From: Chaetoceros tenuissimus
Taxonomy: Eukaryota > Bacillariophyta > Thalassiosirophyceae > Chaetocerotales > Chaetocerotaceae
NCBI GenBank assembly: GCA_021927905.1
Contig: BLLK01000033.1
Coordinates: 1 to 52,213, forward strand
Direction of reading: 5' to 3'
Length of the DNA stretch: 52,213 nucleotides
The position numbers were made by a program, and so were the translations under genes. The notes beneath the pieces are model-generated. The model was given only the letters and a program-made list of their open reading frames with translations. It searched no databases and was not told the DNA's origin. The stretch's first letter is position 1. Each line of letters starts with the position of its first letter. Below are positions 8,652 through 48,881 of this stretch, piece after piece.

Positions 8652-8943
8652 TAGTTTAATATTGGTGTGGTCCTGTTTTACACCCTGTTTTACGTGCTAT
8701 CGTAGCGCTGTATGGGTTAGAGCGAAGGTCTGTCTCCTCACTTAATATGGCTAAGAATTAGGCTTCTCAAGCTCAGTAGGAGGGTTCTCGGTATCTTTTG
8801 TTGATTTTTTTGTTCTTCTGGAGTATCTTATAGTTTCTGTATAGCTTAGAATCTATCTAGTAGTAACGAGTGTTTCAACACCTGTTCATAGCGATATCTC
8901 TAGTTTAGAGCAGTATACGGAGCTGCACAGCGATATTTAATCA
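8652..8943. repeat. Right terminal direct repeat (LTR-like)
   Basis: Almost identical to 4037-4328. The first three bases differ (TAG here, TGA on the left). The near identity implies recent insertion or recent homogenisation. Confidence 0.7.
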
Positions 8944-11321: not shown

Positions 11322-11326
11322 AAAGG
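11322..11326. repeat. Target-site duplication AAAGG (left)
   Basis: AAAGG directly precedes the left LTR at 11327. The same five bases follow the right LTR at 16626-16630. Five-base duplications are usual for Ty3/gypsy integrases. Confidence 0.85.
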
Positions 11327-11542
11327 TGATACAACAAAGGATTCAAAGTAATTAGATGGGAATTAATGTTACTGTTCGCTACCTAAAAGAATGTTTATTC
11401 TGAACACAAAGAGACAGAATTCTTATCAGAATTCTGATGACGTGACGGAAGAAGAATAGAACCAAAGAATTCTGCCAATGCTAAACATAATCCATGTCGG
11501 GTCAGGATACCGTTACCTAACCGTTAGCTACTATTTGTAGCA
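11327..11542 (-). repeat. 3' LTR of gypsy element 1
   Basis: 216 bases, matching 16410-16625 except A at two places where the other copy has G (fifth base of the ACAAC-A block and the TTTATTC block). The pol frame ends inside it, at TAA 11524-11526. Confidence 0.92.
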
Positions 11543-14500
11543 CTCTTCTCCTCATGACTGACCAATGCTGGACAGTCATCACTATCTACGATATGGTCTT
11601 CCAAAATGCCTGGTCTGCGACGAATGGTAACATTTCCATTAACATGAACTTGCATTATCTGAAACGGACCCTCAAATCTTACATCCAATTTGCTTGTAGT
11701 TCGATATGAATCTGCAATTACCAATACCCAATTTCCAACTTGATAATTATAATCAATTCGATTGTCATTTTCTCTTTGATTGCTTCTATCAACTATTTCT
11801 TGCCTCCTAGCTCTGAGATTATTCAAATCAACAATGAAAGGTAAATTCAAAATCATATTTCTTTGGAATGCCAATGCTCCTGGAGATGCATTCATCGTCG
11901 AGTGTACCGCAGTCCTCAAAGCGTAAACAGTATTAGCAAGCAGAGTATTCTATTGCTTGAGTTGCTTCCACTACTGTCTGTGGTGGATTCTGACGAAGTA
12001 AAGATCGAATTTGGTTGAGCATAGTTTGATGCATTCTTTCACAAATACTATTACCTTGTGGATTCCTTGTAGTAATCTGAGCTGGTCTAATATTGAATCT
12101 ATTCAACATCTCTTGAAATTCTGATCCTGTAAATTCACCTCCTTGATCATGGATGCACTTAACTGGTCTAGGATATCTTGAAAGCCAATTATTCTCAAAC
12201 AAAGTTGCTATATGACTTGCATGTTTGTTTTGGATGCGTACTGCTTCGACAAGGTTAGTATCTTGGTCTACCATAGTTAAGGCATGAAATTCCAACGTCG
12301 CTCCTTGTACTTTGAACTTCCAAGGACCAATCAAATCTACGGCTACAGTTTCCCATGGATTCATCGATACCGTTCATGGAGGTAAATGTCCATACTGTAC
12401 ACTGGCACTTTGATTTACTTGACATATTTCGCATTTGGAACAATTCTCCTTGATAGTTTCTGAAGCTTTAGGACTGAAGAAGTTTTCATTGAAAGTTTTT
12501 CTCAACTTTTCTTCTCCACAATGATTTAAAGCATTATGATACCAGCGTAATATACGTACGGAGCATTGCGTTGGGACGAATATCCTATTCTTGTGCATCA
12601 CGAGTTGCACTTGAGGATTCATTTGTCGGAGAGTGTAGTCAGCTGGACTTCTCTGTCGTAACCCTGCTAGATTAGCATCGTTCTGCTGTGCTAATGCTAT
12701 TCTGTTATAATCAAGGGGAAAAATAGCGTTTTCAGCGACATTGATAAACATTTCAGACATAGGTAATTGAATAAAGCATTCTGCTAACCGTAGATCATCC
12801 CATACAATATCTTGAAAAGAAGATTCTTCCACATTCCTGGTAGAACTAGGTCCAGCACTCTTCTCCTCAAGAATCTTGTTATCAACTTCCATACACGAGA
12901 AATAATCGGCACAAGTATTGACTTGTCCTGGAATGAAGTGTAGTTGAGGGCCAAATTCTTCAATGTACATCCTCCAGCGTAGCATTCGTTGGGACGAGAT
13001 ATTTTTGTAGGTAAGATTTTTATGGTCAGTATAAATGTGGATTTTGGCACCGAGGAGCATAGTACGGTAAGTTTTTAATGTCTCAAAAATCGACAAAAAC
13101 TCCTTTTCACCTGTCGGATAATTGCGCTGAGCCGAATTAAGTTTCTTTGAAAAGTAGGCCACTGGTCGCTCAATTCCATCAGCATCTCGCTGAGCAATTG
13201 TAGCTCCCAGCTGATAATCAGAGCTATCGGTGTAAATAAAGAAAGGTTGGTTGTGATCAGGATAAAAAAGAAGAACATCTTTCGCCATTGTCGCTTTTAT
13301 CTGGTCAAACGCTTGTTGCTGTTCTGGACCCCAGTGGAAGTTGTTAGTCTTTAAAAGATCTGTAAGTGGCTTCTGCAAATGAGCTCTACGTTGCCACATA
13401 TCTTTGTAAAAATTTACAGCCCCTATGAAACTGCGTACTTGTTTCACATTTTTAGGAGGTTGCATTGCCAAAAGAGGTTTGATCTTCTTGGACCAAGGTT
13501 TGAGTCCACTTGGAGTTAACCAATGTCCGAGCCAATCGGTCTCTTGCACGGCCCATTCACACTTGAGTGGATTCATAGTGAATCCATGATCCTGCAGTTT
13601 TTTTAGAATACGCTGAATCTTACCAACATGTTCGTTCCAATCATTGGAGAAGATACCAATATCATCAATGTATATTTCACAGTCCTCATCACGTAAAACA
13701 TCACGTAAAACATTTTCCATGATCTCTTGAGCAATGTCTGGAGATTCTAGAATCCCCATTGGCAGCCTGTTATACTTATACATCCCAAATGGAGTAGTGA
13801 TTGTGCATAAGTTTTTGCTTTCCTCATCCAACTCGAAGGTGTAATATTGCATTGAAATATCAAGATTGGTAAAAAATTTGTATCCTTTTCTCCTTTCTAG
13901 AATATCTTTAATCCTTGGTAGCTCATACTGCTTTCGTTGCAAATTCTTATTTAGATACCGGAAATCGCTTACCCAGCGTACTCGACCGTCCTTCTTTGGA
14001 ATAATGAAAGTTGGAGCAGTCCAGATGGATCGGTTAGGGGGAGAAAGAACACCTCGCTGCACCAAACGATCAAGTTCTTCCTTGAAAACTTTTTCGTGTG
14101 CATAAGGAACCTTGTAAGGACAACTCTGACGAGGCTGAGCATCAGGCTTGAGATGAAGATGAACCTTGCTATCAGGATATACTTTAAGTTGACCATCAAA
14201 TAGTGTTGTGAACTCGTCCAGTACACGATGTAGATCTTTCCTCTGTTCTTCTGACAAGTGCTGCTGAGCATCTGCTACTTCTTTTCCTGTGACCTTGTCA
14301 TACTTAGACTCCATAATAAAAGATTCATCTTGCTCTTCCGCTTCATCATCATATCCATATTCAGTGAAGGCAAGCTGTACATTCGTACGGTTGTTCCAAT
14401 GACGACGAGACTTCATGGAAACTGTGAGGTCCATCCAAGACATTGTTTGATCCTGGTAGTTCAGTACCACTCCCATTGCTGCCAAAGTTCTCTGACCCAA

Positions 14501-15013
14501 GATGATATCATGAGGACACTCTCCATCATGCACAAGCGCAAAGATCTTTTCAATACTATGCTTTCTTCCAAACTCTGGCAATACGCTATTCTCTAGAATT
14601 ACATATTGTCTGAAGTGAACTGTGCCACCGATACCAATAGACGGAGATGCCTCTGTTAAATCATAAACTGGACAATTCTTTGGTAATGCACGTCGATGAA
14701 TGATGTCACAAGTTCCACCGGAATCAAATAGTGTTCTACATAACTTCGTATCGCGATGCCCATTAATAGTGCGAGGTTGCAATAGAGAAACTGGAGCAGT
14801 TAATGGATCCTTTCTCATTTGGTCGGCTTGCACACTGAGACTAGCTTCCACTTCAACTGGTGGAGAGGAAATAAAATCATAGACATCCATTGGAATCGAA
14901 GTTGCAAAGTATTCTTCCCATAGAACTTCTTCCTCCTGCTGAGGAGTCTTCCAGAATTGCTGTTCTGCTTCTTGTTCCCAGAAGCATTCTCCAAGCTGTA
15001 ACGGTGAGTTCAT
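11524..15013 (-). pseudogene. Pol of gypsy element 1 (PR-RT-RH-INT), nonsense plus frameshift
   Basis: The first segment (15013-12374) has aspartic protease FDSGG at residue about 97, RT with the YIDD box near residue 444, RNase H with YTDSSDYQLG near 594 and TDHKNLTY, and the integrase H-x4-H ... C-x2-C finger near its end. TGA at 12374-12376 follows YGHLPP, where element 2 has arginine. The same frame continues to 11933 with integrase DLIGPW, HDQGGEF and the CERMH glutamate. A one-base insertion near 11940-11945 then moves the rest (11919-11524) to another frame; it carries the GPF module. All catalytic residues are present, so only two lesions separate it from an open pol. The upstream in-frame stop lies eight codons before ATG 15013, beyond a 3' splice site at 15028. 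Confidence 0.88.
11543..11553 (-). promoter_or_regulatory. Polypurine tract of gypsy element 1
   Basis: Reads GAGGAGAAGAG on the minus strand directly before the TG of the 3' LTR. This is the expected plus-strand DNA primer site. Confidence 0.7.
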
Positions 15014-15027
15014 AATAGAGACAACTC

Positions 15028-15654
15028 CTGTTGATTAATTAATAAAGAAAAGAAAAGAAAAGAAAAGATTGGATGAGACAAATTGAAATTACATAAAATG
15101 GCTCACTTCGTGAGTACTTGTGGTATTGAATATCCAGATGTGGAAGTGTTCGCTTCCAACAAGTCCTCACGAAGCGGCCTTAAGCCTATTAAATCGTGGA
15201 CCTTAATTGAACGCACCATAATGTGCTCCGCAGACGTTGTTATTGTCCATGAGGAAGTGTTGTTCATTACTGCCATTCGCACCCTGCTGGTTTGAACCGT
15301 TTTCTGGATTGCTACGAGTATTAGCATTGTTATTATTTTGAGTTCCTTGATAATTGTAGTTCTGATTCTGATCATGTCCTTGATTGTTACCGGAGTTATA
15401 GGACTGTCCTCCATTATTGTTGTGGTTGGAGTGGATATGATGACCTCTTCCTCCACCGTTACCACGGCCTCTGCCGCCATAACCATTGCCACGGCCTCTT
15501 CCTCCTCGGCCTCTGCTACCAGTATCACCACAAAAATTGGCACTTCTTGGATTAAGAATGCAGTCCTCTTATTCATGACTATTATGTGGAGGCTCATGTC
15601 TGGTACACTGGTTTCTGAAGCCACCAGTCTGACCGCGTCTGTTTCCTTTCTTAC
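15028..15654 (-). other. Predicted phase-1 intron joining gag to pol, gypsy element 1
   Basis: Donor CAGC|GTAAGA at 15654, inside the basic KQRKKGN part of Gag. Acceptor ...AATCAACAG|G with last intron base 15028, preceded by a pyrimidine tract of repeated CTTTT and a TTAATTAATC branch-like word. The exon before ends on codon base 1 (16390 minus 15655 is 245 full codons) and the exon after starts on base 2 of the pol frame. The predicted 627-base intron contains the Gag TAA at 15569-15571, the Gag C-terminal finger and the Gly/Asn-rich tail. Confidence 0.55.
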
Positions 15655-16390: not shown

Positions 16391-16409
16391 TGTGAATAGT
16401 AATTACTAG

Positions 16410-16625
16410 TGATACAACGAAGGATTCAAAGTAATTAGATGGGAATTAATGTTACTGTTCGCTACCTAAAAGAATGTTTGTTCTGAACACAAAGAGACAG
16501 AATTCTTATCAGAATTCTGATGACGTGACGGAAGAAGAATAGAACCAAAGAATTCTGCCAATGCTAAACATAATCCATGTCGGGTCAGGATACCGTTACC
16601 TAACCGTTAGCTACTATTTGTAGCA
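16410..16625 (-). repeat. 5' LTR of gypsy element 1
   Basis: 216 bases, TG...CA on the minus strand, paired with 11327-11542. Followed on its right by AAAGG (16626-16630). As the upstream LTR it would hold the promoter. Confidence 0.92.
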
Positions 16626-20278: not shown

Positions 20279-21812
20279 TCAATTCAAGTTACAGGGGCTA
20301 GCTAGAGTATAAACTCTAGCTACGTAGCTTCCATCCCTCCTCGTGTACATATCATAAAACCTTGTCGGTACCAGCCAATCCAAGTTAGAGTAAATCTCGG
20401 TTTGACTTACAAGGCAGCTGAAAACTTCAGCATCATTTCCGCTGGAGCTCAGGCACTCCTCTGTTTCTTGCTTCTGTTGTCGCTCCTCTCCTTGCCAATC
20501 TGAATACGCTGTATCTCTCCTCCACAACAAGATCCTTTGGGATCAAGCTTGAAGTCTTTTGAATCTCTAAGAGGATTTCGTGCAGATCTCCTTCAAAATG
20601 TGACATCTCCAAAGGTTCGCCTCTTCTATCTCCATCCTTCTTACAGAACAGCCAACCCTTTTCTCTGCCTTCATCCTTTCTCACCTTGAGCAGCCTGTCC
20701 AACCATATTCCTACATCGCATCCGAAGTCAGATTTTGTATCTTTACTTATGAACAGGAGGTAAACCGTGACAGAGGTTACTTGCTTGAACTTTCCAATTA
20801 GAGGCAAGACGATATAGTTCTCGTTCTTTAGACGCTTTTCCTTCACCATCAATTCCAAGATGGAGCCCAAACTGATCATCATAGTTTCATTTCCTCTTAG
20901 CGCAGCTAGAAATGAGAATAGCAGATAGCAAGCAAATTCGATTGATCTCGAATCTCTGGGGTTGTTGAGTACTCGTTTATTCAAACGTGTCATAATCTCA
21001 GACATTAACTCGCAGGAGATAGCTTCATTCACATTGGGTTGGTCTCCACTCCGTTCATGCATACCCTGAATAAAACGATTGAACCAGAAAGAATTTGCTG
21101 GGCATGAGTTCACAAACCAACTTTTCCCATTCTCCAACGAAAATACCGTGGTGCTCTGACTCATCTGACTTGCTTGCCAGAAATTTGTGTATGTAGACCT
21201 GAGCTTTCTTACTGTACCAAACTGAACTGTAGCAGCATTACTACCAGGATCAAGAGAACGCTTGAGAATGACCATTGCAGGACCTGCACCTTGATTGTCT
21301 TCTAATGGCATTGGTCCTCTCAAAGGTGTGGACTCAAAACCAAGCTCATCTTCAGTAGCGTAGTATCTCCTTAGTTGGTTGAGGTTGGCTTGAACTGTGT
21401 TACTTGTTCTTGCCCAGAAAGCATCCAAATTTGCTCAACGAAGCAATCTGATATTCAGTTTGTCCACACTTGAGAACCAATTTGGATTTCTTCCATGCAC
21501 ATTTTGAAACAGACACAATTCGCATTGAAAAGGAGTCAGACATGTGTCACCAGGTCTAGCGCAAAGAAACATATCTTGGTCCACCTGCGGCATCTCCATT
21601 TCTTCTTCGTCCAACACCTCTACTCTAGGAAAATGAAGTTCTTCCGGGGTATCATAGCAAGAAGGGCACCACGCGCTAACACATGCCGCAAATTCTCCCC
21701 GCTTCTTCCCAAAGTTCGCGCAGAAGATTTGACCAATCGGATCCTTTAAATCCTTCCTGCAACTTCGCTTCATACAAGTTCCTCGCCATCTTGTCCATGA
21801 AGAGCTTCTCAT
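20279..21812 (-). pseudogene. Tyrosine recombinase of DIRS-like element with upstream Cys-rich segment
   Basis: 21812-21435 encodes a Cys-rich part (CVSAWCPSCY, CELCLF). TGA at 21435-21437 interrupts LLR-ANLDAFWAR, then the frame runs to 20433. It holds the core: first arginine in AALRGNE, a strand GFKQV-like region, and RLARRGATTEARNRGV for the second arginine block. A frame change near 20440-20530 moves the C-terminus to 20279-20530, where MYT may supply the nucleophile tyrosine. The enzyme would cut and join circular DNA intermediates at the target. Assignment rests on the R...R-x-x-R layout and on position after RNase H. Confidence 0.62.
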
Positions 21813-24451
21813 GCCTGATTCTGAAAGGTTTCTTACTGTAGATAGGAAAACGAATAAAGATTAGTAAAGGTTCAAAATGTGTGTGTTCACCCCAAAACTC
21901 TAAGTCCCTAATCGGAATTTCGATGGACACATCACACCTTTTGTTAGCTTGCTTCCTCCATTGACAAGTCCATAACCTTGGACAAATTAAAACATGAGCT
22001 CTTGAATCTGCATCACTATGACTCCAAGTTGCCATTTGTTCCACTGCAGCCTCGGCTGCTGCTGGAGCTGGAAGCCACAATGCATTCCCTATCTCCCTTT
22101 CTTCATCAAAGGTGAACCACTCTTCCGGAGTAAGAAGAGAAAGTTCCCCAAGCACTTCAGACCTCCACCACGACTTTACCCACGTCATTAAGTCTGGGGC
22201 TCTGGTCAAAGCAGACTTATCCAAGTCCATATAAGACTCCAAACTTTTTCCCGCTGCAATACCTTCATTATAATCAGACCGGCTTAGTCTGTCGATTCCG
22301 CAGTGAATCATTCTTACTCCAGAAATGTGGATCACATGCAGAATTAGGTCTCCCTCCATTTCTATTTTCCTAAGACGGAGAATCAATTCGAAAAGCTGCC
22401 TGTTGGAAGAAGTACCCTTGTAGTAGCACCTCTCCGCAACTTCATTGTCGGTGAAGATAAACAGCTCAACCTCTTTCAGTTTTCCTTCTTTCCAAGCTTT
22501 CTCCACAGCAACCACTAGATTCTTAAGCTCTCTGAAGTTGGATGATTGCTCTTGAGCTTCATTGCACCAATGACCGAACCGTAAGTTTAAAGACTTATTA
22601 CCCGTGAAATTTGAAGACTCATCTCTGATAGGGATTTCTACACCTGATCCAAATCCAGCCTTTGAAGCGTCTAAGAACCCATAAGCAACAGCACAGATGT
22701 GCTTTACCCTTGCAAGTCTTTTTACTGGTTTCTCGGATTCACATAATTTCAGCAAAGCATACAGATTGTCCTTAAGTCTAGTTGCAGGTTCCACAGTAAC
22801 TGGACACTTGGTGTAATCAAACTCTTCTTCCAGAGAATCATCGTCTGCTGTGCTTCTTCTAGCTCAGTTTGCATCAGATAACTCAAGGCCCTTTCTATGA
22901 TTGAGTTTGGCTTGGCTTCAGCTTCCCTACGCTTTACCCCTGTTATCTTCCATCCATCTTTATCTTTTCCTGGAAGATATCCACTCAAGGTAAGATGAAT
23001 TCCTTTCAGATACGGAACCATTGACAGGTAAGATCTGGTGACGTAGATTAAAAATCCTCTATCCGATCGCAGTTTCTTGAAATTCATTCCTTTTCCCAGT
23101 TCCAACTCAGCTTTCATCTCCCCAAGAATTTTCTTTGTCTTGCTCCACTTCTCCTTCGATATCAACACATGTACTCCTTCTGACGTGTACACCATCGATC
23201 CTGCCCAAGGTCCAGGCTCTTGCAAAATAGTTCTAAATTTTCTTGCAGCGTTTTGGATTCCGAGAAAATTTAACCTCTTTGCAACTTGCTGTATTCCGTT
23301 CCAGCCTTCTACTTCCGTCAAACCTGTACCTCGTAAGTCGTCAATGTAGACTAAGACATCACCAGCAAGTGATCCATCTGTTTTTGCCTGTTTGGAAGGT
23401 TCAAAACAACTTTCTCCCAACAGAACGGGTTCCTCGAGTCTTTTCTCTCACCAAGAATGAAGGGCTTAGCATGTAGTAAAGACTGAGTGGATAAATAAGG
23501 CGATGGTCCAAAACCCATGACTAATCTGCACCATGCTTTCCAAATCTTTTTCACCTTTTCTGAGTTTGCTGGGTCTAAAAAATACTGGGTTACGTCCACA
23601 CCTGCATATTTTCTAATATCTTCGTCCAGCATAAAATTATAGAACATCTCTCCAATATCCGCGTCTCCCATCCAAGTACCTTGTTCCACTCTTCGAAGTA
23701 AGGAGCGAATAGTTGGTAATGGGAACCAAGGAGCATACACTGCGTCGTTCAAACCGGAGGACGTTCCATTAAACACTACTCTCACATCGTCAGCCTTAGG
23801 GACATCAAAGAAAGATATGAGTGATTCGATGAATGGATCCACTAAATATTTCCTCTTTACAAATTTCTCAAGCTTTGATTTTATTTTCACGTGAGCAGAC
23901 GGATCATTTGGTGGACGTTGACGTCGCTTCCAAGAGGGCAATTTCTCAGGATCATGCAGGACTTTAGTTCCATCTCTCATGGCAGAGGTATAATCTTTAT
24001 TTAGGAGAGATTCATTCCACCTCCAGAAGAAAGGTCTAGATCCCACATTCCATTCCCACAAAGTAGCCTCCGCAGATCTCTGTATGCAATCAAGTCCTGC
24101 AATACGGTTCTTCTTTGTGTCAGCAATCGAGCCTGAGACAGACCACCAACGTCTATAAGTCTGTCTGCCTGATTTTGTCCACACGTACTTTCCTTGGATG
24201 TAAGAGACAACTTGTTTCTTTTCAAGAGTTCTCACCACATAACTGTCAGAGGAGCTTAGGCGCTTGTTTCTAATGTGATGGATCAACGAAAATGTGACAT
24301 TCTGTTTCCAGAAAGCCAGCATCCAATTTCGAAAACCTATCAGCTTCTTCTCGTCATTCTCAGTGAGTGAGATGTTCCCAAACTTGCAAATTGCTTCTGT
24401 CCAAAGATACGTGGGTACTGCAGCATCATCTGCTTTCGCTACTTTTGAGTT
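21676..24451 (-). pseudogene. Reverse transcriptase and RNase H of DIRS-like element
   Basis: RT palm motifs: DADIGEMFYNF (motif A), VMGFGPSPYLSTQ (motif B), then VYIDDL (motif C) after a frame change near 23400-23420. A second change lies near 22790-22850. RNase H follows in 22794-21676: GFLDASKAGFGS, FRELKNL and IFTDNEVAE give the D-E-D triad. Shift positions come from overlapping frames with complementary parts of one domain. The enzyme would copy the element RNA into DNA in the nucleus or capsid. Confidence 0.75.
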
Positions 24452-24898
24452 TCAAATTAGCTCGCTTACCACCTTGTCTTTGGTGACGTCAATCAGATCT
24501 GGTCAGGTAGATCCCTCCGTCACATTTGCTTCACCATTCTCCTTCTTCTCTTCTTTCATCTTCTTCTCAACATCTTCAACATTCTCTTTCTTCTCAACAT
24601 TCTTCTCAACATTCTTCTCAACATTCTTCTCAACACTCCTCTTCTCACCCTTCTTCTTCTCCAAATTCTTCTCAATACTCTTCTTCTCCTCAACATTCTT
24701 CGCCACATTCTTCTCAACACTCATCTTCTTCTCACCAACATTCATCTTCACTCCAGCATTCTTCTTCGTCTCAACATCCGCCTCTACACTCATCTTCTTC
24801 TTCTTCTTCTGCTTGTTCTTCTTCACATCAGCCTGATCTACAAGTGTGTCATTTGCATCTTTGACACTCTCTACATGAGCACTACCACCCCCCCCCCC
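24452..24898 (-). pseudogene. Repetitive charged linker of DIRS-like polyprotein
   Basis: Lys/Glu-rich sequence built on a VEKN tetrad repeated four times in a row and in variants (SVEKNV, SIEKNL). It lies between the unrecognised domain and RT, starts in a new frame right after a C11 run (24888-24898, G11 on the coding strand), and ends with TGA at 24503-24505 and again at 24452-24454 before entering RT in the same frame. A charged coiled linker is likely. The mirror frame on the plus strand gives Ser/Gln/His repeats and is an artefact. Confidence 0.5.
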
Positions 24899-25793
24899 GA
24901 GTAGCCACCACGGAATCAGAAAACAAAAACATATGTTGAATCCCAACAGAATAGAGTTTTAAAGGGAAAATATTGCCTTGGAGAAATTTTCTGATTACTT
25001 TAGCCTGTTCCAAGGATCGTGTATATCCAATAGGAAGATCCAAACAAGCTGCTTGTTCCAGAACTGACAACGAACGACATCTCCAAGCCTTGTCAAAAAC
25101 ACAAGGAGAACAAACTGTGGCAGCAAGGTCCGAAGAGGACTCAAATGGAAGAAAATCCTGAGGACCTGGAAGAGAAGCAGAGCATGAAGAGACAGAGTCT
25201 CCTGTACCATCCGTAGATTTTAAGATGGTAGACAGCGTAGCAATAGGATGAAATGGTATGACAAGAGATCGCACGTGATTCCGAAACACCTTGTTCCTGC
25301 AGTACACATATAAAGATAACGTGGCTGTTAGGACACCGCCAATCTTGTTGTGCTGCAAAGGAAGGATTAGTTGAGTTTTCTTCCACGAAAGAGGGATGCT
25401 CCCGCCCTGAAGAGGGAAATCAGAAACCAAACAAAGAGAAGAAGACTGGAGATAAGAAGCTAAAGTGTCTGGGATCACGCCGCCGCTGAGGAAAAGAACG
25501 TCTAACTTGTCAAAAGAATTATCATGCTTTGTCTGCACACGAAAGTTCGAAAGACTACAACACTTCTTGTCAAAAGTTGAGCCTTCTGATCGGACCCACA
25601 GGACCTTCATGTGTGCAGCCTCTGCTGCAAAAGCAAAAACAGGCCAAGCTTTGCAATATACTCCAACTGATAGTACTCTGATTCCAGAGACGGAGAAAGA
25701 AACCGCATTGTCTGTGAAATAACAAACTGGTCCCTCCAATGGAGCAAGACAATTTTCCCGGGAAACAAGCTCCCGAGGACTGACTTCAGATCA
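24882..25793 (-). pseudogene. Unrecognised domain of DIRS-like polyprotein
   Basis: About 285 codons from 25739, in the same frame as the Gag-like ORF and separated from it only by TGA at 25791-25793. It has hydrophobic strands (IRVLSVGVYCKAWP, LDVLFLSGGVIP) in an alternating alpha/beta pattern. A nucleotide- or SAM-binding fold is conceivable because some DIRS elements carry a methyltransferase-like domain, but I see no catalytic motif and that domain normally follows RT. It ends in GGGW at the C11 run. Confidence 0.4.
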
Positions 25794-28088
25794 CTTCTTC
25801 TTTGCAGCCTTTGCTACCGTTTCCAAACTTGCTTTGAGGTCTGATATCTCCTTTTCAAAGACTTCCTTACTGACTCTGCTGTTCTTAGTGTGCTCACCCA
25901 CTACACGTTGTACCTCCAGATGTCCAGTGAACTTGACAGCTACCAAAGCATCCATTTGTTTCATTGCCTTCAACAGTGCCCAAATCACATGCGCCGACTG
26001 TTCCAGATGTGAACCAATCGAATCAAGATCTTCACCCCATGTCCTACATTCTTTCAAGACTGAAAAGATTTCCCTAACAACATATCATGTGAAGATCCAT
26101 GCCTCCTCCTCTCCAACCAAAGCACTCTCCGCATCATAGATGTGGTCCATGAAGTTATAAAATGAGTGCAAATGAGTTACAGACTGGTTGAACATCGTTC
26201 GAAAGAAGGTTTGCAGTTCCATATGATCAGACTTTTGTAACAATTGCCGTAGCTCCTGGTTAAAAGCAACGGAAACATTGTGAAAAGACTTTTCTCCTTG
26301 CTGTTTGCGTCCAGTAGACCCGGAATGAGAAGTCCATGTAGACCGAGATGCCAACGGTTTAATAGGTGCTTTCTCATCATTACCAAGATGTTGCCTTTGT
26401 CCGACAAAGAGAAGAGGAATGTCACGTGTTTGTGAATACTGTAAGCGAGACATCGATGAAGTCACATTCAATTTGGATTTGACTTCCTGATCTTTATTTC
26501 GATCAGTCTCTGTCTTTTGATCAGAACCAGGAGCAATTCTATCCATCACATGCCACATGTCGTAGCATAGACCGTAGAGACTGGCAGGAAGTTTAGCTGT
26601 AGCATCAATCCGCTCCAAGAAGACCAAAACATCTTCTACACCTCTGAATTCAAGACCTCCTACTGTAATGACGTGACTGAGATCCACTCGAGCTTTGACT
26701 TCTTCTAACTCCCGCTGGAGAGATTCTACTAAGACTTTCAAGTCAGCTACCTCGCTTGATGAATTGCTTTGAGCTGTTGTAGTTGGACTTCCATCACTCC
26801 AAGCAAAATAATCTCCAGTGAAGCCAACACACTCGATGACATTAGCAAAGAAGGTAGAAGGTGGCAAGAATGGAAATCCTGCATCAGAGGGATCAGGCAA
26901 CAAATCAGGGATAACACGCAACGATCCACCATCTGGGGAAGGCATTCCAACCTCTCCTAGGTTGAGTCTATCAGTGGTCTGCACAATGTTTTCTTTCAAA
27001 GATTTTGCATTGCTGATAGTGGACTCAATGGCAGTCCATATATCCAGAAACATTCCTCCATCCTCATCTAGACCTGGGTCAGTTCCAAGACGCAGATTGG
27101 TTGACACCACTAAGTGGGATAGCTTACTTGCAACTGACTTCAACTCTTCATCGATTGAGTTTAAGTGGAGTCCGGTTTCCCGGAAATAGCCTTGCACCTT
27201 TTCCGCATGATCATACAGCGCCTTTTGAAACGGGTCTCCTAAGTTTGTATAACCACCTTCTTCTTCATCTTCCACATCCAAATCACTATCTTCATCAGCA
27301 ACCAAGGTTGCACCAACGAGTCTAGCTCCAATACCTCTGGCACTCATGGGAGAATCTTTTCCCAGTAGAGACTCTTCAAGACCAACTTCATCCATCAAGT
27401 CAGTCAATTCACGTACTTCGTCTTCAGATGGAGGTGCTTTCGCTGGAGTCTTAAACATATTGCTTTTTCCTTTCCATTCTTCCTTAATAATGGTCCAAGC
27501 AGTAGCAATCATCTCCTCCTCCTTCCAACTATCATTCACCGCTTCAACACAGACTCCAAATACTTTCCTAGTGAGGTCTAGGCCTGTACTTCCGACTCCC
27601 TTGCAAACTGCTTTGCAGAGTTCTGAATCCGCCATCACAACCTCCATAGGAACTCCCAAATCCGAAGACACTCGAGTTTTATTAGTGTTGTACCAAGGGT
27701 ACAAGTAGCCGTCCTTCAAAACAGAAGGTTGACGCTTGTGACTCTTGACCGGACACACTCCTCGTACCAAAGACCTTCCACAGGCAACATTTCCTTTTGT
27801 TCCAATTTCCACTCCACAAAAGGATCTATCTACCGAACCCGACTCAAACTGCTCATATTTCCGAAAAGTGTCTGCGTTAAGAATTGCCTCAGACAACAAC
27901 CCCCCACCGTGATCCAACTTACCACCGAAACCCACACCTGAACTTGACAACAACCTCTCGGAGGAAGTAGCAGCAGGTCTCGCGGTTTGACGAGCACCGA
28001 GAGACACAGCTGATGCCGGCTTGGAAGCCGACTTAGAGTTTTGCTTCATTTTACTGAGATAAGACATGATTGTTAAGAGTGTTGTCAC
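25794..28088 (-). pseudogene. Gag-like protein of DIRS-like element
   Basis: Opens at ATG 28088 and runs 667 codons to TGA 26085-26087, then 97 more in the same frame to TGA 25791. It has a Ser/Ala-rich start, an acidic middle (EDSDLDVEDEEE) and a coiled-coil-like segment (SEVADLKVLVESLQREL). No zinc knuckle is visible. Position before RT and lack of enzyme motifs suggest a structural protein; I do not recognise the family. Confidence 0.5.
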
Positions 28089-28486
28089 TAAAGAAATTAG
28101 TAATTGTGACTTCTACTATCAGGAAGGGATAGGAAACACAACTAGTTCAGACGCAGTGAGAAATACATAAGTGCTGAGGACCACACAAACTGACAAGAAT
28201 AAAGCTAAAAGGATATGAGGCAACTCCTGAGCATACGCAGCAGCGAGAAGCCTCCCTAAATTTTCTCATCGTGGTCTGCTGCATGACGTATAGGTTGATC
28301 TTGCCAAAGTTGTATTTGGCTCCTATAAAGCTAATCATGCTCAACATCCAATATACTCTTTTCGTTGGTAGATTGGAAATTATGAGATCAACATTGAATG
28401 CAGTCTTGAAGGTGAGGCGGCCATGTCTTGCCTTGACTCTTGTAGGGTCTTGACAGGTGTCGAAAAGCCTCCTTCTTCTTGACTTC

Positions 28487-34299: not shown

Positions 34300-34789
34300 A
34301 GCGATTTTTTAAACGTATCTTTGACACAAATACGAGGATCTTGAATAATGTTTAAAATCAAAGGATTTCTCAATGCAGAAGCAATTTCTAATGAACAAAA
34401 TTCTGTGTTATCTATAAGACTCTACTCTTTCTACGACGAAATTCGGTTTTTCGAATCTAAAATTTGTAAAAATAAAAAACTACTTTCGTGCAATATACCT
34501 TTCGATTCAGCGTGTTTTACTTGTTGTTATTCTGTATTGGTTATTGGTCAAAGTACATTCTATCGATTAAAAACAACTTTTCAATATTTCTGCTACGTCA
34601 CAGACAATAGACCTTTTACTGATGGCCGTCATTGGCTTGTAGAACTTCGAAGAAGAAAGAATCTCTTTGAATCTAAAATGAGAAGCCTTTTGACAAGTAT
34701 GTTCTTTCCTCATCATTGACTAATGCTTATAAATAAAATAACTCACCAAATCAATCCCATTAACTACAATTGATTCCCTGGTTGCATCA
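34300..34789 (+). repeat. Probable 5' LTR end of gypsy element 2 (start not resolved)
   Basis: The right limit is set at GTTGCATCA (34789) by analogy with element 1, whose LTR ends GTTGTATCA about 20 bases before gag. A TATA-like TATAAATA lies at 34728-34735. The left limit is arbitrary: no second LTR is present for comparison. A 123-codon ORF here (34348) is probably chance. Confidence 0.35.
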
Positions 34790-34810: not shown

Positions 34811-35896
34811 ATGGAAAGTAAACAACTTATTATTAATCCCCCAATTCCGTATGAGTACAAAGTGGATGAATCCAAATTTCCACTTGCCAAGATTTCCCAA
34901 AATTTTGATGATGGTTCCACTGTGACTGAAAAACTCTATTGTTTCTCAGGTAACGGTGATGTATCTACTTCAAGCCCTGAAGCTTTCTTCGTATTTGAGG
35001 ATGAATACAAAAGCAGAACTGAACGTCTCTTGTGGGACGACAAAGACCGTTTTGATAATCTACCTCGTGAACTGCAAGGAAGCGCCAAAGTTACTTGGAC
35101 AGACGAGATTGCGACTGATAATGCAATCGTGTCTGCGCCAGCTCAACAAAAATATAAGCTCGCAATCAAGAAACTTACTGAAACGTTCTGTGGAGGAGAT
35201 GCTCCTGGAGATGTTCAACGTGATGCATTCTGGAACTCTCCAATTTTCCGTAAATGCAAACATGAAAATATGTTCCAATACCTCAATCGTATGAATCGTA
35301 TTTTTCATTTGGATTCTCGTCTTCTGCACAAGATGTATCCAAACGATTTGAATGATCAAGAAAAGAAACGTATCATCTTCAAGGGTGTCCCTTATCAATG
35401 GAAAGAAAACTTCCGTCATACTGGCATGGACCTCACTTACATTACCATGAAGGAGCTCGTGAACTATATGCAGAAAGAAAAGCAAGCTGCTGATCTTCAC
35501 GATGCAAATCGTACTAAGAATCGCCAGCAAGAGATGCGCAAGATTACTGGGCACAGACGATCTCGCAAGAGAAAGTCCCAGTCAACCAATGACGAAGATA
35601 AGGAAGAAAAAACCGATGAGGGTTACAATCAGTGCCGTAAACATCCTCAGAATAAGCACACATGGGAGGAATGTTTCCTAAATCCTCGTAATCCGAATAA
35701 CAAGCTCAACAACAAGCGCCAGAAGAAAAGTAAGTTCCATTCTTCACGCAATAACAATGCTACTGCTAACAATGGTAATAATCAGAGCCATAATCAGCCT
35801 CCTGTAGCAGAACAGAGAGCAGCTGAAAGCAACAACAATCAATCTCCACCTACATCAACAGATGCAGGTGCAACCTTAGATAATATCTGGGAATAA
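34811..35896 (+). CDS. Gag of gypsy element 2
   Basis: A 361-codon intact frame ending TAA. It shares capsid landmarks with the Gag at 16390 (VTWTDEI, ETFCGGD, PYQWKENF). Near residue 278 the finger C-x2-H-x4-H-x4-C (QCRKHPQNKHTWEEC) is followed by a Lys/Arg stretch and an Asn/Gln-rich tail. Gag would package element RNA. The ATG is the first after the short leader. A GTAAGT in the basic stretch (35730) is a splice-donor candidate, so this frame may represent the unspliced product only. Confidence 0.82.
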   Translation: MESKQLIINPPIPYEYKVDESKFPLAKISQNFDDGSTVTEKLYCFSGNGDVSTSSPEAFFVFEDEYKSRTERLLWDDKDRFDNLPRELQGSAKVTWTDEIATDNAIVSAPAQQKYKLAIKKLTETFCGGDAPGDVQRDAFWNSPIFRKCKHENMFQYLNRMNRIFHLDSRLLHKMYPNDLNDQEKKRIIFKGVPYQWKENFRHTGMDLTYITMKELVNYMQKEKQAADLHDANRTKNRQQEMRKITGHRRSRKRKSQSTNDEDKEEKTDEGYNQCRKHPQNKHTWEECFLNPRNPNNKLNNKRQKKSKFHSSRNNNATANNGNNQSHNQPPVAEQRAAESNNNQSPPTSTDAGATLDNIWE

Positions 35897-36108
35897 AGAG
35901 GTTGAGGTCGATGGATATCGTTGCTAGAGTCATCAATTTAAGCGTTGCATCATGTCTTATGGAACTCATTGCACGAGTCATAGACAAAATGTTGTCAGAA
36001 CTATGCGTAGTAGACAACGATATATATATATATATATACATAAAATTAAATCAAAATAAACAAACAAAAGAAAAAGAGATCTCTAACATAACATTTGTAT
36101 TTTTATAG
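35730..36108 (+). other. Predicted phase-1 intron joining gag to pol, gypsy element 2
   Basis: Donor AAAA|GTAAGT at 35730. Branch-like CTAAC at 36083-36087, then ATTTGTATTTTTATAG with the last intron base 36108. The exon before ends on codon base 1 (34811-35729 is 919 bases). The exon after begins on codon base 2, and the frame then reads through six codons into the pol ATG at 36129. The 379-base intron holds the gag stop and an (AT)n run near 36020-36037. Confidence 0.65.
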
Positions 36109-36128
36109 CTCACGACTTTGACGTCGAA

Positions 36129-39100
36129 ATGCTTGATACTTCAACAGGAATAACGAATCCAGCAATTGATATTAACAGTGACTTCTGGCAAGAACCAACT
36201 GATTGTTTAATGCTTGACCAAGAAAGTCTTATGTGGAAGGAGTATATCAACTCTCCACGAAAGTATAACTTAAGGGAATTCCTGTTTGATCCAACTGTAA
36301 GAGTTGAGATGAACCCACTTCAAAAGGTCGATCAAATGAAAATGACCAACCGAAATCCAGTTACGTTGATCTTACCAAAGTTAATCAACGGCATGTCCGA
36401 TGTAAAGCTAATGCGAGGACTGATAGATTCTGGTTCAGATAAAACTGCAATAGTAAGAGCTGCATTGCCATCAGGATGTCCACTCACTGAAATTCCAGAT
36501 GAAAATTTCCTTGGATTCGGTGGTATTACCACAATCCATGAGAAGGTCACACTGCAACAAGTCATTTTGCCGGAGTTCTCAAGAAGTCTCCAGATTGAGT
36601 CATTTGACGCAGTTGTGATGGATGGCCGATCCAATTACGACATTATTTTGGGTCGAGATTTCCTCCAGCAGATTAGAATAATTCTGGACTTCGAAAATCT
36701 ACAAATTAAATGGATGAACATGGAAATCTCCATGAAACCCTCAAGATACTGGAATGATTTAGAGAATGTGCAAATGGCCTTTGCCGAATACACAGATGAA
36801 GCCAATGAAGAACCTAAAGATGGTTACGCTGCAACTATTCTGCCGTCAAAGTATGACGATGTGTCACCAGATGTAATTGCTGCAAAGCAAACCCATCTGG
36901 ATGAACAAAAGCAACAAGATCTCAAAAGGGTGCTACATCAATTTCCTACCTTATTCAATGGCAAACTTAAGCAGTATAAGGGAGAAGAAGTGCATCTAAC
37001 TTTAAAAAAGGATGCTAAACCAGTACAATCCAGAGTCTTCAAGAATGATTTTGACCGCTTAGTAGAACAAGGTGTTATGAAAAAGGCCCCAAGAAGCGAA
37101 TGGGTTGCTCCAACCTTTATCATACCTAAAAAGGATGGCCGTGTTTGCTGGGTCAGCGATTTTCGTGAACTTAATAAAAATCTGATTCGCAAGCAATATA
37201 CACTGCCGAGAATTCATGACATTTTTGAGCGCCGTAATGGATACAAATATTTCACGAAGCTTGATATAACCCAATATTATACATTTGAACTCGACAAGGC
37301 AAGCTCAATGCTTTGCACAATAGCTACGCCATTTGGTCTTTATCGCTACTTACGTCTACCAATGGGTATTCTCGAGAGTCCTGATATCGCTCAAGAGATT
37401 ATGGAACGTCTTCTTGCCAATTGCGATTGTGAAGTCTACATTGATGATATTGGTATCTTTAGTAGGACCTGGAAGGAACATATTGCAAAATTGAACAAAA
37501 TCCTTCACATTCTTCAAGACGCAAATTTTACAATAAACCCATTGAAATGCGAATGGGCTGTTCAAGAGACAGATTGGTTAGGCCACTGGTTAACTCCTGT
37601 AGGTATTAAACCATGGGAAAAGAAAATTAAGCCCTTGCTAGCGTTGCCAAAGCCAAGAACAACGAAAGAAGTCAAGAGTTTCCTTGGCGCCATTAATTTC
37701 TACAAAGATATGTGGAAAAGACGGCCGCATCTCCAACAACCACTTACGGAGTTGCTTAAAAAGGGTTCCTTTAAATGGGGACCTGCGCAAGACAAAGCCT
37801 TTGAGCAAATCAAAGCTCTAATGGCTAGTGATGTTTTACTGTACTATCCCGACCATAATAAGGCTTTCCACATCTATACTGATAGCAGTGACTACCAACT
37901 TGGCAGCTCAATTGCTCAGTACGATGATGATGGAATACTTCACCCTGTTGCATATTTTTCTCACAAATTGAATAGTGCACAAATGAACTACACAGTGGGA
38001 GATAAAGAATTTCTCTCTATTTTTGAGACCTTACGTACTTATCGAACCATGTTACTTGGAGCCGAAATTCATCTTTATACAGACCATCAGAATCTGACAT
38101 TCAAAAATATTAATTCACAGCGAATTCTTCGTTGGAGAATGTATATTGAAGAATACGGTCCAAAATTACATTTTATCCCAGGCGAAACTAATACCTTAGC
38201 TGACTACTTCTCTTGTGTCGAACTCAATCAGCAAGTCATGGAGGAGAAGAGTCCTGGTCCAACTACGGAAGTAGTGGATTCTTATTATCAAGACATTGTA
38301 AATGATGACTGGAGATTAGCCGAATGTCTTCTTCCGATTTCAGATGCCTTCATTAACGTTCAAGAAAAGGCACTATTTCCAATGAACTTTGATCGCATTC
38401 AATTGGCTCAACAAAGAGATGCAAGTCTACAACAGTTACGACAACAGAAACCTCAAGAATATGTATTACGTCAGACTGGACAGCATAATCTTATCTATCA
38501 TTGAGAAAGAATATTTATTCCATAAACATATGCTCCTCGTATTATTCGCTGGTATCACAATGCTCTTAACCATCCAGGAATACAGAAATTGTTGAACAAC
38601 TTTAATCAACATTTCTTCAGTCCAAAGGTAATCCAAGTTGTAACTGATGTTGTTTCTAACTGTGAATTTTGTCAACGAAATAAAACAAGTAACGCAATAT
38701 GGACATTTACCTCCAAGGAATGTTACTATGCAACCATGGCATACAGTAGCAGTAGATCTCATTGGTCCTTGGAAAATGAAGATACAAGGAGTAGATGTTG
38801 AATTTCGTGCCTTGACTATCGTTGATAATGATACGAATCTATTGAAAGCAGTACGAATTGAAAATACTAGAGCTCAACATATTGCTGATCTTTTCGAAAA
38901 TACATGGCTTTCCAGATATCCAAGACCTGTCAAGTGTATCCATGATAAAGGTACTGAGTTTACTGGATCTGAGTTTCAACAAATGTTACAAAGATTTCAC
39001 ATTCGACCTTCACAAATAACTACGAAGAATCCTCAAGGTAATTCGATCTGTGAAAGGATACATCAGACAATGCTTAATCAGATACGTTCTTTGCTACGCC

Positions 39101-39534
39101 AAAATCCTCCTAATGATATCAATCAAGCAAATCATGTTATCGATATACTACTTGCAAATACCGTCTATGCATTACGAACATCGCTTCACTCTTCATTGAA
39201 TGCTTCACCAGGAGCTCTTGCATTTCAAAGAGACATGATATTGAATATACCCTTCATTGCAGATTTAAATAACATTCGCAATAGAAGACAAGAGATTGTA
39301 AATAGAAGCAATGATAGAGAAAATGCAAATAGACTGGATTATAATTATCAAGTAGGTGATTGGATACTAATTCGCTCAGATGCTCATCAAGTAGTACAAA
39401 AGCTCGAAGAACGATGGTTTGGACCTTTCCAAATTACTCAAGTTCATGTAAATGGAAATGTTACTATTCGTCGTCGACCTGGAGTAGTTGAACGCATTAA
39501 TATTAGAAGAATTAAACCATACTGGTTCAGATAA
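36129..39534 (+). pseudogene. Pol unit 1 of gypsy element 2
   Basis: Protease LIDSGSDKTA is intact near residue 99. RT has YIDD near residue 436 but lacks ten residues (30 bases) after QSR that units 2 and 3 retain. RNase H reads IYTDSSDYQLG. TGA at 38502-38504 stops the frame after LIYH; TAA follows at 38517-38519 (CAA in unit 2). The HHCC finger continues in this frame to about 38690, where one extra base shifts it; integrase D/D/E (DLIGPW, HDKGTEF, SICER) lies in 38647-39534 and ends with the GPF module. The integrase frame ends KPYWFR, whose last residues come from the junction word. Confidence 0.85.
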
Positions 39535-42500
39535 AACTGCAATAGTAAGAGCTGCATTGCCATCAGGATGTCCACTTACTGAAATTCCAGCTGAAAGTTT
39601 CCTTGGATTTGGTGGCACAGCCACAATCCATGAGAAGGTCACACTGCAACAAGTCATCTTGCCGGAGTTCTCAAGAAGTCTCCAGATTGAGTCATTTGAC
39701 GCAGTTGTGATGGATGGCCGATCCAATTACGACATTATTTTGGGTCGAGATTTCCTCCAGAAAATTGGATTAATTCTGGACTTCAAGAATCTTCAAATTA
39801 AGTGGATGAATATGGAAATTTCAATGAAACCAGCAACATACTGGAATACCTTAGAAAATGTACAAATAGCTTTTGCAGAGTATACAGATGAAGCAGATGA
39901 AGAACCTAACGATGGTTACGCTGCAGCTATTCTGCCGTCAAAGTATGACGATGTATCGCCAGATGTAATTGCTGCAAAACAAACTCATCTGGATAAAGAA
40001 AAGCAGCAAGATCTTAAAAAGGTACTGCATCAATTTCCTACCTTATTCAATGGCAAACTTAAGCAGTTTAAGGGAGAAGAAGTGCACCTAACCTTAAAAA
40101 AGGATGCTAAACCAGTACAATCCAGACCTTACAAAGTACCATTTTTGCATAGGCAAGTCTTCAAGAATGATTTTGACCGCTTAGTAGAACAAGGTGTTAT
40201 GAAAAAGGCCCCAAGAAGCGAATGGGTTGCTCCAACCTTTATCATACCCAAAAAGGATGGCCATGTTTGCTGGGTCAGTGATTTTCGTGAACTTAATAAA
40301 AATCTGATTCGCAAGCAATATACACTGCCGAGAATTCATGACATTTTTGAGCGCCGTAATGGATACAAATATTTCACCAAGCTTGATATAACCCAATATT
40401 ATACATTTAAACTCGACAAGGCAAGCTCAATGCTTTGCACAATAGCTACGCCATTTGGTCTTTATCGCTACTTATGTCTACCAATGGGTATTCTCGAGAG
40501 TCCTGATATCGCTCAAGAGATTATGGAACGTCTTCTTGCCAATTGCGATTGTGAAGTCTACATTGATGATATTGGTATCTTTAGTAGGACCTGGAAGAAA
40601 CATATTGCAAAATTGAACAAAATCCTTCACATTCTTCAAGACACAAATTTTACAATAAACCCATTGAAATGCGAATGGGCTGTTCAAGAGACAGATTGGT
40701 TAGGCCACTGGTTAACTCCTGTAGGTATTAAACCATGGGAAAAGAAAATTAAGCCCTTGCTAGCGTTGCCAAAGCCAAGAACAACGAAAGAAGTCAAGAG
40801 TTTCCTTGGCGCCATTAATTTCTACAAAGATATGTGGAAAAGACGGCCGCATCTCCAACAACCACTTACGGAGTTGCTTAAAAAGGGTTCCTTTAAATGG
40901 GGACCTGCGCAAGACAAAGCCTTTGAGCAAATCAAAGCTCTAATGGCTAGTGATGTTTTACTGTACTATCCCGACCATAATAAGGCTTTCCACATCTATA
41001 CTGATAGCAGTGACTACCAACTTGGCAGCTCAATTGCTCAGTACGATGATGATGGAATACTTCACCCTGTTGCATATTTTTCTCACAAATTGAATAGTGC
41101 ACAAATGAACTACACAGTGGGAGATAAAGAATTTCTCTCTATTTTTGAGACCTTACGTACTTATCGAACCATGTTACTTGGAGCCGAAATTCATCTTTAT
41201 ACAGACCATCAGAATCTGACATTCAAAAATATTAATTCACAGCGAATTCTTCGTTGGAGAATGTATATTGAAGAATACGGTCCAAAATTACATTTTATCC
41301 CAGGCGAAACTAATACCTTAGCTGACTACTTCTCTTGTGTCGAACTCAATCAGCAAGTCATGGAGGAGAAGAGTCCTGGTCCAACTACGGAAGTAGTGGA
41401 TTCTTATTATCAAGACATTGTAAATGATGACTGGAGATTAGCCGAATGTCTTCTTCCGATTTCAGATGCCTTCATTAACGTTCAAGAAAAGGCACTATTT
41501 CCAATGAACTTTGATCGCATTCAATTGGCTCAACAAAGAGATGCAAGTCTACAACAGTTACGACAACAGAAACCTCAAGAATATGTATTACGTCAGACTG
41601 GACAGCATAATCTTATCTATCATTGAGAAAGAATATTTATTCCACAAACATATGCTCCTCGTATTATTCGCTGGTATCACAATGCTCTTAACCATCCAGG
41701 AATACAGAAATTGTTGAACAACTTTAATCAACATTTCTTCAGTCCAAAGGTAATCCAAGTTGTAACTGATGTTGTTTCTAACTGTGAATTTTGTCAACGA
41801 AATAAAACAAGTAACGCAATATGGACATTTACCTCCAAGGAATGTTACTATGCAACCATGGCATACAGTAGCAGTAGATCTCATTGGTCCTTGGAAAATG
41901 AAGATACAAGGAGTAGATGTTGAATTTCGTGCCTTGACTATCGTTGATAATGATACGAATCTATTGAAAGCAGTACTAATTGAAAATACTAGAGCTCAAC
42001 ATATTGCTGATCTTTTCGAAAATACATGGCTTTCCAGATATCCAAGACCTGTCAAGTGTATCCATGATAAAGGTACTGAGTTTACTGGATCTGAGTTTCA
42101 ACAAATGTTACAAAGATTTCACATTCGACCTTCACAAATAACTACGAAGAATCCTCAAGGTAATTCGATCTGTGAAAGGATACATCAGACAATGCTTAAT
42201 CAGATACGTTCTTTGATACGCCAAAATCCTCCTAATGATATCAATCAAGCAAATCATGTTATCGATATACTACTTGCAAATACCGTCTATGCATTACGAA
42301 CATCGCTTCACTCTTCATTGAATGCTTCACCAGGAGCTCTTGCATTTCAAAGAGACATGATATTGAATATACCCTTCATTGCAGATTTAAATAACATTCG
42401 CAATAGAAGACAAGAGATTGTAAATAGAAGCAATGATAGAGAAAATGCAAATAGACTGGATTATAATTATCAAGTAGGTGATTGGATACTAATTCGCTCA

Positions 42501-42656
42501 GATGCTCATCAAGTAGTACAAAAGCTCGAAGAACGATGGTTTGGACCTTTCCAAATTACTCAAGTTCATGTAAATGGAAATGTTACTATTCGTCGTCGAC
42601 CTGGAGTAGTTGAACGCATTAATATTAGAAGAATTAAACCATACTGGTTCAGATAA
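39488..42656 (+). pseudogene. Pol unit 2 of gypsy element 2
   Basis: Begins at the junction, so the protease reads NHTGSDKTA and lacks the catalytic aspartate. RT has the full PYKVPFLHRQ segment, YIDD and RNase H. It shares with unit 1 the TGA (41624-41626) and the extra base near 41812, but not the TAA. Integrase lies at 41769-42656 with a few substitutions. The protease-proximal 600 bases differ from unit 1 at many sites, whereas RT to integrase is nearly identical. Confidence 0.85.
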
Positions 42657-43722
42657 AACTGCAATAGTAAGAGCTGCATTGCCATCAGGATGTCCACTTA
42701 CTGAAATTCCAGCTGAAAGTTTCCTTGGATTTGGTGGCACAGCCACAATCCATGAGAAGGTCACACTGCAACAAGTCATCTTGCCGGAGTTCTCAAGAAG
42801 TCTCCAGATTGAGTCATTTGACGCAGTTGTGATGGATGGCCGATCCAATTACGACATTATTTTGGGTCGAGATTTCCTCCAGAAAATTGGATTAATTCTG
42901 GACTTCAAGAATCTTCAAATTAAGTGGATGAATATGGAAATTTCAATGAAACCAGCAACATACTGGAATACCTTAGAAAATGTACAAATAGCTTTTGCAG
43001 AGTATACAGATGAAGCAGATGAAGAACCTAACGATGGTTACGCTGCAGCTATTCTGCCGTCAAAGTATGACGATGTATCGCCAGATGTAATTGCTGCAAA
43101 ACAAACTCATCTGGATAAAGAAAAGCAGCAAGATCTTAAAAAGGTACTGCATCAATTTCCTACCTTATTCAATGGCAAACTTAAGCAGTTTAAGGGAGAA
43201 GAAGTGCACCTAACCTTAAAAAAGGATGCTAAACCAGTACAATCCAGACCTTACAAAGTACCATTTTTGCATAGGCAAGTCTTCAAGAATGATTTTGACC
43301 GCTTAGTAGAACAAGGTGTTATGAAAAAGGCCCCAAGAAGCGAATGGGTTGCTCCAACCTTTATCATACCCAAAAAGGATGGCCATGTTTGCTGGGTCAG
43401 TGATTTTCGTGAACTTAATAAAAATCTGATTCGCAAGCAATATACACTGCCGAGAATTCATGACATTTTTGAGCGCCGTAATGGATACAAATATTTCACC
43501 AAGCTTGATATAACCCAATATTATACATTTAAACTCGACAAGGCAAGCTCAATGCTTTGCACAATAGCTACGCCATTTGGTCTTTATCGCTACTTATGTC
43601 TACCAATGGGTATTCTCGAGAGTCCTGATATCGCTCAAGAGATTATGGAACGTCTTCTTGCCAATTGCGATTGTGAAGTCTACATTGATGATATTGGTAT
43701 AGGGTTAATAGCGCGGTGTTAA
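42610..43722 (+). pseudogene. Pol unit 3 of gypsy element 2, truncated in RT
   Basis: The translation is identical to unit 2 from the junction to YIDDIGI at 43701, then runs into unrelated sequence and stops. It lacks RNase H and integrase. The protease aspartate is missing as in unit 2. Confidence 0.85.
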
Positions 43723-48145: not shown

Positions 48146-48478
48146 AGCCTCTACCTAATAGGACTTTGGACATGAACCTAAGTGTATTTTGAAAATATAG
48201 AAAATAGTATAGGGGTTTTGGTCCAGAACGGGGAAGGGTTTGCTCTAAAAAGGTCCTATTTCCTGTACTATCAAAAACCCAATGCTGTTTGCCTGGGGGT
48301 TCAAATCCTGTTACAAAATGTTTGATTTAATAAGCAAAATGTATTCATTATAGGACAAAATGTTTTCATCGTAATAATATGTAATCTTTTTGCTTTAATT
48401 TATTGTAACATTTTATTTTTGAGTTTTGACTATGTAGATCTGGGCTCAGTATGGGTTAAGAGTACTAGTAATAAGTAT
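48146..48478. other. Spacer with pol III box-like words
   Basis: TGGTCCAGAACGG (48213-48225) resembles an A box, and GGGGTTCAAATCC (48296-48308) a B box, about 80 bases apart. CCAATGCTG precedes the B-box word, as it does at 43884. A tRNA-derived SINE is possible; no cloverleaf could be built. Confidence 0.25.
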
Positions 48479-48790
48479 GAGCACGGTGGGTGGGTCTCTA
48501 TGTTATTTATGTTAGCATAGTTCCTACATAGTAAGTGTACAAGTGACATGAGCACGGTTATTTATGTTAGCATAGTTCCTACATAGTAAGTGTACAAGTG
48601 ACATGAGCACGGTGGGTGGGTCTCTATGTTATTTATGTTAGCATAGTTCCTACATAGTAAGTGTACAAGTGACATGAGCACGGTGGGTGGGTCGCTATGT
48701 TATTTATGTTAGCATAGTTCCTACATAGTAAGTGTACAAGTGACATGAGCACGGTGGGTGGGTCGCTATGTTATTTATGTTAGCATAGTA
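48479..48790. repeat. Minisatellite, 71-base unit, five copies
   Basis: Units begin GAGCACGG at 48479, 48550, 48605, 48676 and 48747. Unit 2 is 55 bases long, lacking the GGGTGGGTCTCTATGT part. Unit 5 is partial. Units are nearly identical, with a T/G change in GGGTC(T/G)CTATG. Confidence 0.9.
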
Positions 48791-48881
48791 CTAACACAGG
48801 ACATGAGAAGTCCAGTACCTAGTTTAATTTATAGATTACATGATGTCCCCCCACGTTGTGATTACCTTGGGGAAGAGGTAA

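Follow-up and report, generated by a model that had tools for sequence, protein, structure and literature searches.

A probable retained intron between gag and pol of a diatom Ty3/gypsy retrotransposon

Element 2 and the spacer between its gag and pol

The window analyzed here is the whole of contig BLLK01000033.1 of the diatom Chaetoceros tenuissimus (assembly GCA_021927905.1), 52,213 nucleotides (nt) long and with a G+C content of 38.7%. It carries on its plus strand a Ty3/gypsy retrotransposon, element 2, whose gag and pol open reading frames (ORFs) are kept apart by a spacer that probably forms part of an intron; a member of a sister family, element 1, lies on the minus strand. The genome searched was a 41.03-Mb assembly of 68 contigs, of which the window is contig C23. 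It encodes many light-harvesting proteins (56 matches); the one that was compared matches fucoxanthin chlorophyll a/c proteins best, a type that indicates diatoms and allied algae.

Element 2 starts with a 5' long terminal repeat (LTR, 34591..34789, plus strand), recognized by its similarity to the 199-nt LTRs (TG...CA) of a relative on contig C59. The start of the LTR is read at 34591, and 34750 is the one place in the window that its last 40 nt match. The gag ORF (34811..35896) extends from an ATG at 34811 to a stop codon at 35894-35896 and encodes 361 amino acids (aa), with a Q/N-rich tail and one zinc-knuckle-like C/H stretch that was read by eye; Pfam gave no match in this ORF. The pol ORF (36087..38504, first ATG at 36130) encodes protease, reverse transcriptase (RT), and RNase H, and the profiles RVP, RVT_1, and RT_RNaseH follow each other within 36087-38501 in the order that defines Ty3/gypsy elements. 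A search of the window with Rfam at gathering thresholds returned nothing.

The first-pass annotation of this DNA had described gag and pol as separate frames divided by a stop-containing spacer, and the coordinates bear this out, with stops in the spacer in the gag frame as well as in the pol frame. It had also proposed that the spacer, together with the end of gag, could be removed as an intron of 379 nt (35730..36108, plus strand), and all the components of this proposal are found in place. The donor, AAA/GTAAGT (the slash marks the splice site), has its GTAAGT beginning at 35730, the acceptor AG lies at 36107-36108 within TTTTTATAG/C, and a CTAAC at 36083-36087 puts the branch A about 22 nt upstream of this AG. 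Phase 1 on both sides was likewise correct, as a matter of arithmetic only.

The nearest relative of element 2

A DNA query with the element 2 stretch found a sole other copy in the genome, C59:521401-522742, which is 95% identical; outside this genome, no relative was confirmed in viral_contigs or genome_contigs. The C59 copy (L001) is bounded by 199-nt LTRs (3182-3380 and 8212-8410) that are identical to each other, with the 5-nt target duplication GGATA on either side, and thus has the ends of a Ty3/gypsy element, whereas no 3' LTR is seen for the window copy. Its gag is disrupted by a stop and an insertion, and its pol is open over 1160 aa. Conservation of the sites among related copies was a check named in the first-pass annotation, and it holds here: donor, CTAAC, and TAG are retained in phase 1/1, with indels in the tract immediately before the acceptor AG.

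The sister family

Family 2 is 71% identical to element 2 in RT and 37% in the protease region. The set considered comprises 17 copies, 13 of them close (L006-L018) and four more divergent (L019-L022, where L019 is element 1); left out of the count were L035, in which a deletion removes the acceptor region, and L053 and L054, which are decayed or cut short. Among the 13 close copies, pol is open over 1153 aa in 11, over 1146 aa in one, and over 369 aa in one. The 11 copies with pol open over 1153 aa suggest that the family has been active recently. In an ungapped comparison of equal-length copies with L006, 10 of 11 show 3-16 differences over 3804 sites; L008 is out of register because of an indel, and L017, of another length, was left out.

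The arrangement of element 2 recurs in this family. In 17/17 copies the gag stop is followed by a spacer of 169-175 nt and then by pol, the acceptor CAACAG/GA is present in all 17, and the donor ATG/GTGCGT, 14 nt from the end of the gag stop, in 16 of them. Conservation extends to family 2, though what is conserved there would be another intron, of 183 nt and phase 1/1 in L006. In element 1, the proposed intron covers 189 nt (15028..15216, minus strand; ATG/GTGCGT ... CAACAG/GAG, phase 1/1) and adjoins a pol ORF of 886 aa (12374..15034, minus strand) with RT, RNase H, and the H2C2 part of integrase. The Integrase_H2C2 profile follows RNase H, again as in Ty3/gypsy elements, a profile result obtained for this sister-family copy only. 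Element 1 is flanked by two direct copies of a 217-nt repeat (11326-11542 and 16409-16625; 99% alike), which are its probable LTRs.

From the acceptor AG to the first ATG of pol, five codons read GVVSI or GIVSI in all 17 copies. Across six copies compared, one variable site falls on a first codon position, none on a second, and three on a third (Fisher P 0.077), a pattern weakly indicating that this segment varies like coding sequence.

Joining of gag and pol by recoding

Where pol is open, as in C59 and in the main type of family 2, gag and pol lie in one frame, an arrangement that would also suit ribosomal frameshifting or readthrough of the gag stop. Some further gypsy lineages of this genome, with RT 38-43% identical, point in the same direction. 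All eight of L024-L031 have two long same-frame ORFs that are separated by one stop codon and by no spacer (five junctions were read), and L094 and L096 are built in the same way; the layout was not seen in the ORF list of L095. If the upstream ORF is gag, as presumed, the layout would be that expected for stop-codon readthrough of gag.

The two families treated here do not have this single in-frame stop. Counting that of gag, their common gag-pol frame is interrupted by eight stops in C59 and by four in L006, and simple readthrough is therefore very unlikely. A single frameshift cannot join gag to pol, as their frames have no overlap. The remaining frame stays open across the window spacer (35884-36105), and nearly so in C59 (L001:4497-4697), which makes a double frameshift formally possible in the family of element 2. 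Such a shift would nevertheless be confined to about 12 nt at the end of gag and, at the opening of pol, to about 18 nt in the window and 2 nt in C59, and no frame is open through the L006 spacer. The frame offset also varies with indels in the spacer, but the shifted copies (window, L020, and L021) all have a broken pol, and for this reason the drift was not taken as proof against recoding. Overall, recoding is judged extremely improbable.

Strength of the splice sites

Host introns for comparison were read by eye from 18 short kinesin-gene pieces, which yielded 18 introns (L091 held none and L090 two). The pieces were picked where profile matches to one gene broke off, a choice that may favor short introns. 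A G at +5 is present in all 18, the start GTAAGT in ten, and AAA/GTAAGT in two. The donor at 35730 scores 11.5, within the leave-one-out range of these introns (6.1-13.2), and the second-best GT in the gag of element 2, at 34950, reaches 3.6. The two strands of the window, together 104,426 nt, contain donors of this strength, that of the 35730 site, five times, and an equally strong donor appeared in the 3' half of gag in 21 of 1000 synonymous-codon shuffles. All of those 21 were in phase 1, so the phase of the donor adds no information.

The acceptor of element 2 scores 5.8, compared with a leave-one-out host range of -1.7 to 10.5. That of C59 scores 8.9, a value reached in 76 of 2000 shuffled spacers, and a match in acceptor phase has a 1-in-3 chance of arising in each family. 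In L006, the top donor in gag (7.7) and the top acceptor at the junction (4.7) are both in phase 1. The sites of element 2 are, in part, more than chance would provide.

Splicing could also yield Gag-Pol through other sites, for instance an acceptor at 36148, or the donor at 35730 could be a chance match. The CAACAG/G there (36146..36147, plus strand) has phase 1 and sits where the acceptor of family 2 aligns, but its score is 0.2 and it lacks a pyrimidine tract, while the alternative phase-1 donor, CAG/GTGCAA (35868..35873, plus strand), is poor, with a score of -0.6. This variant is accordingly held to be improbable.

A further use of the acceptor is suggested by foamy viruses, in which Pol expression depends on splicing and Pol is made without Gag. 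If the acceptor is real but is joined to a leader donor or one near the start of gag, a Pol-only mRNA would result, in keeping with the position of the acceptor just 5' of a Met in both families, with a donor of score 7.7 at 34697 in the window LTR, and with weaker donors in the L006 gag (such as 5.6 at 349). The 34697 donor is, however, missing from C59, where no donor of at least 4 is found from the start of the LTR to gag, nor is there one in the 174 nt before the gag of L006. A Pol-only mRNA is thus regarded as very improbable.

Proposed mechanism and points against it

In the favored reading, the spacer and, in the family of element 2, the end of gag would constitute a retained intron of a diatom Ty3/gypsy element. 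The unspliced RNA, which would also be the genome, would be translated to Gag, terminating at the gag stop, and the host would splice part of the RNA, thereby joining gag to pol in phase 1 to give Gag-Pol. Sites, phases, host-like donor strength, spacer stops, and a matching arrangement in family 2 are observed; that splicing occurs, that it is partial, and that it controls the ratio of Gag to Gag-Pol is what we infer from them. The reading is considered probable. A single Gag-Pol frame created by an in-phase intron, as the first-pass annotation had it, remains the preferred explanation and applies to C59 and family 2 as well, but element 2 itself turned out to be defective.

Several observations weigh against this reading. 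The copy of element 2 in the window is dead: its pol stops at 38504, the next long ORF downstream is in a different frame, and the pol segments form a tandem array with a period of 3122 nt (36427..43701, plus strand) whose first unit is shorter by 30 nt, within RT. No 3' LTR is seen in the window, and no repeat pair among the window repeats belongs to element 2. Because of this broken pol, shortened unit, tandem array, and lack of a visible 3' LTR, the copy informs on its family and not on its own activity. At the junctions of the array, the end of the integrase part is joined to protease at CTGGTTCAGATAAA, a stretch that is also found in protease; template switching, unequal exchange, or an assembly error could be the source of the array.

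The sites themselves also leave room for doubt. The proposed intron is long for this host (379 nt against 61-105 nt for the 18 kinesin introns), its acceptor score is matched or beaten in 841 of 2000 shuffles of the spacer, and the AG at 36177-36178, within pol, scores 6.3 against 5.8, but in phase 2. For family 2, the donor strength is attained in 66 of 1000 synonymous shuffles and the L006 acceptor score in 1380 of 2000 shuffled spacers, and the L006 gag holds a second GT that scores 6.2, in phase 0. One copy, L022, has lost the donor consensus (GTGCAT) with gag still open, although its pol is broken. Donor positions are not homologous between the families, lying 167 nt and 14 nt from the end of the gag stop. 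In addition, the first ATG of pol is close behind the acceptor (21 nt in the window and in C59, and near in family 2), a distance that fits separate initiation too. Finally, no intron-less copy turned up in the C. tenuissimus genome (0 matches with two junction probes at up to three mismatches), nor any spliced junction in viral_contigs. The lack of intron-less copies fits either the absence of splicing or spliced RNA that is not reverse-transcribed.

RNA structure and separate initiation of Pol

The main rival is that Pol is translated separately from a Met just inside its ORF, either because ribosomes reinitiate beyond the gag stop or through an internal entry site in the spacer. The ATG at 36130 is retained in C59 (L001:4741), which, like family 2, also has a second Met (IMN) with A at position -3; in the window copy, which is dead, this Met is ACG. 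An entry site would also find some support in the spacer region of family 2, which folds better than its shuffles (z -3.07, 0/200). This region contains a stable long stem with two inner hairpins (L009:1386-1465), in which one pair is changed from A-U to G-C in three of six distinct copies. The covariation is thin, since only one of 31 pairs is changed on both sides, a number reached by 249 of 500 shuffles; the covariation score is attained by 24 of 500.

A structured spacer was considered for the family of element 2 as well and was rejected, the fold of 35897-36040 being unremarkable (z 0.63), which also speaks against an entry site there. The fold of the whole 379-nt segment gives z -2.33 (0/100 shuffles). 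Two further points stand against separate initiation: the codon-like variation upstream of the first Met of family 2, which is a weak one, and the host-like donor in gag, which separate initiation leaves unexplained. On this balance, separate initiation of Pol is thought rather unlikely.

Turning back to the retained intron, a wider form of this reading may be put forward tentatively, with somewhat less than even confidence. In it, one clade of diatom Ty3/gypsy elements would use the retained-intron switch, while other lineages of the genome would use the single in-frame stop, and the intron might contain a structure that exists in unspliced RNA alone and serves packaging or retention, so that only intron-bearing RNA is copied. 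Such selective copying would fit the absence of intron-less copies; the role of the intron in packaging is a guess.

Other features of the window

A cluster of long minus-strand ORFs occupies 20433-28112, with a G+C content of 0.43-0.45, above that of most of the window, and one of these ORFs has a sub-threshold match to a phage integrase (E 0.0047). Two direct repeats of 290 nt (4040-4329 and 8655-8944), 100% alike and 4.6 kb apart, are perhaps the LTRs of another element. A tandem repeat of about 71 nt is located at 48431-48799.

Comparison with known systems

Retroelements need far more Gag than Gag-Pol, and many of them use recoding to this end. Were the retained intron real, a splice-based switch would exist outside plants, beside in-frame-stop lineages in one genome, and the change of strategy could be studied directly.

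Among plant LTR retrotransposons, Bianca is a Ty1/copia element. It resembles the elements described here in having two ORFs, about 172 bp apart (PMC6317226); the part of that source consulted leaves splicing of Bianca unstated. In copia from Drosophila and BARE1 from barley, splicing likewise affects the ratio of Gag to Pol, but there it yields a Gag-only RNA, whereas here it would yield Gag-Pol (PMC3735527, as far as the portion consulted goes). Within diatoms, GyDi1 and GyDi2 from Thalassiosira pseudonana are Ty3/gypsy elements too, and the word "intron" occurs 0 times in the main text of the paper describing them (PMC2806351). A gag-pol intron in a diatom element was not reported in the literature searched, itself consulted in part.

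The closest parallel is Ogre, of the Tat lineage of plant Ty3/gypsy elements. The first-pass annotation had called regulated splicing unusual as a Gag to Gag-Pol switch, and unusual it is, but Ogre offers a proven precedent: the intron between its GAG-PROT and RT ORFs is spliced out, as proven in pea and Medicago (PMC6317226). Only a subset of transcripts is spliced, which allows the full polyprotein to be made, and the spacer has a mean length of 274 bp; Ogre also has an additional RNase H (aRH) between RH and INT (PMC6317226). In both systems two ORFs flank a spacer, an intron in the case of Ogre and a proposed one here. They differ in host and in standing, as splicing is demonstrated in plants and proposed in the diatom, and in position, as the proposed diatom intron precedes protease. 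If splicing is confirmed, the novelty would lie in the host lineage and in the location of the intron before protease, the kind of mechanism being already known from Ogre.
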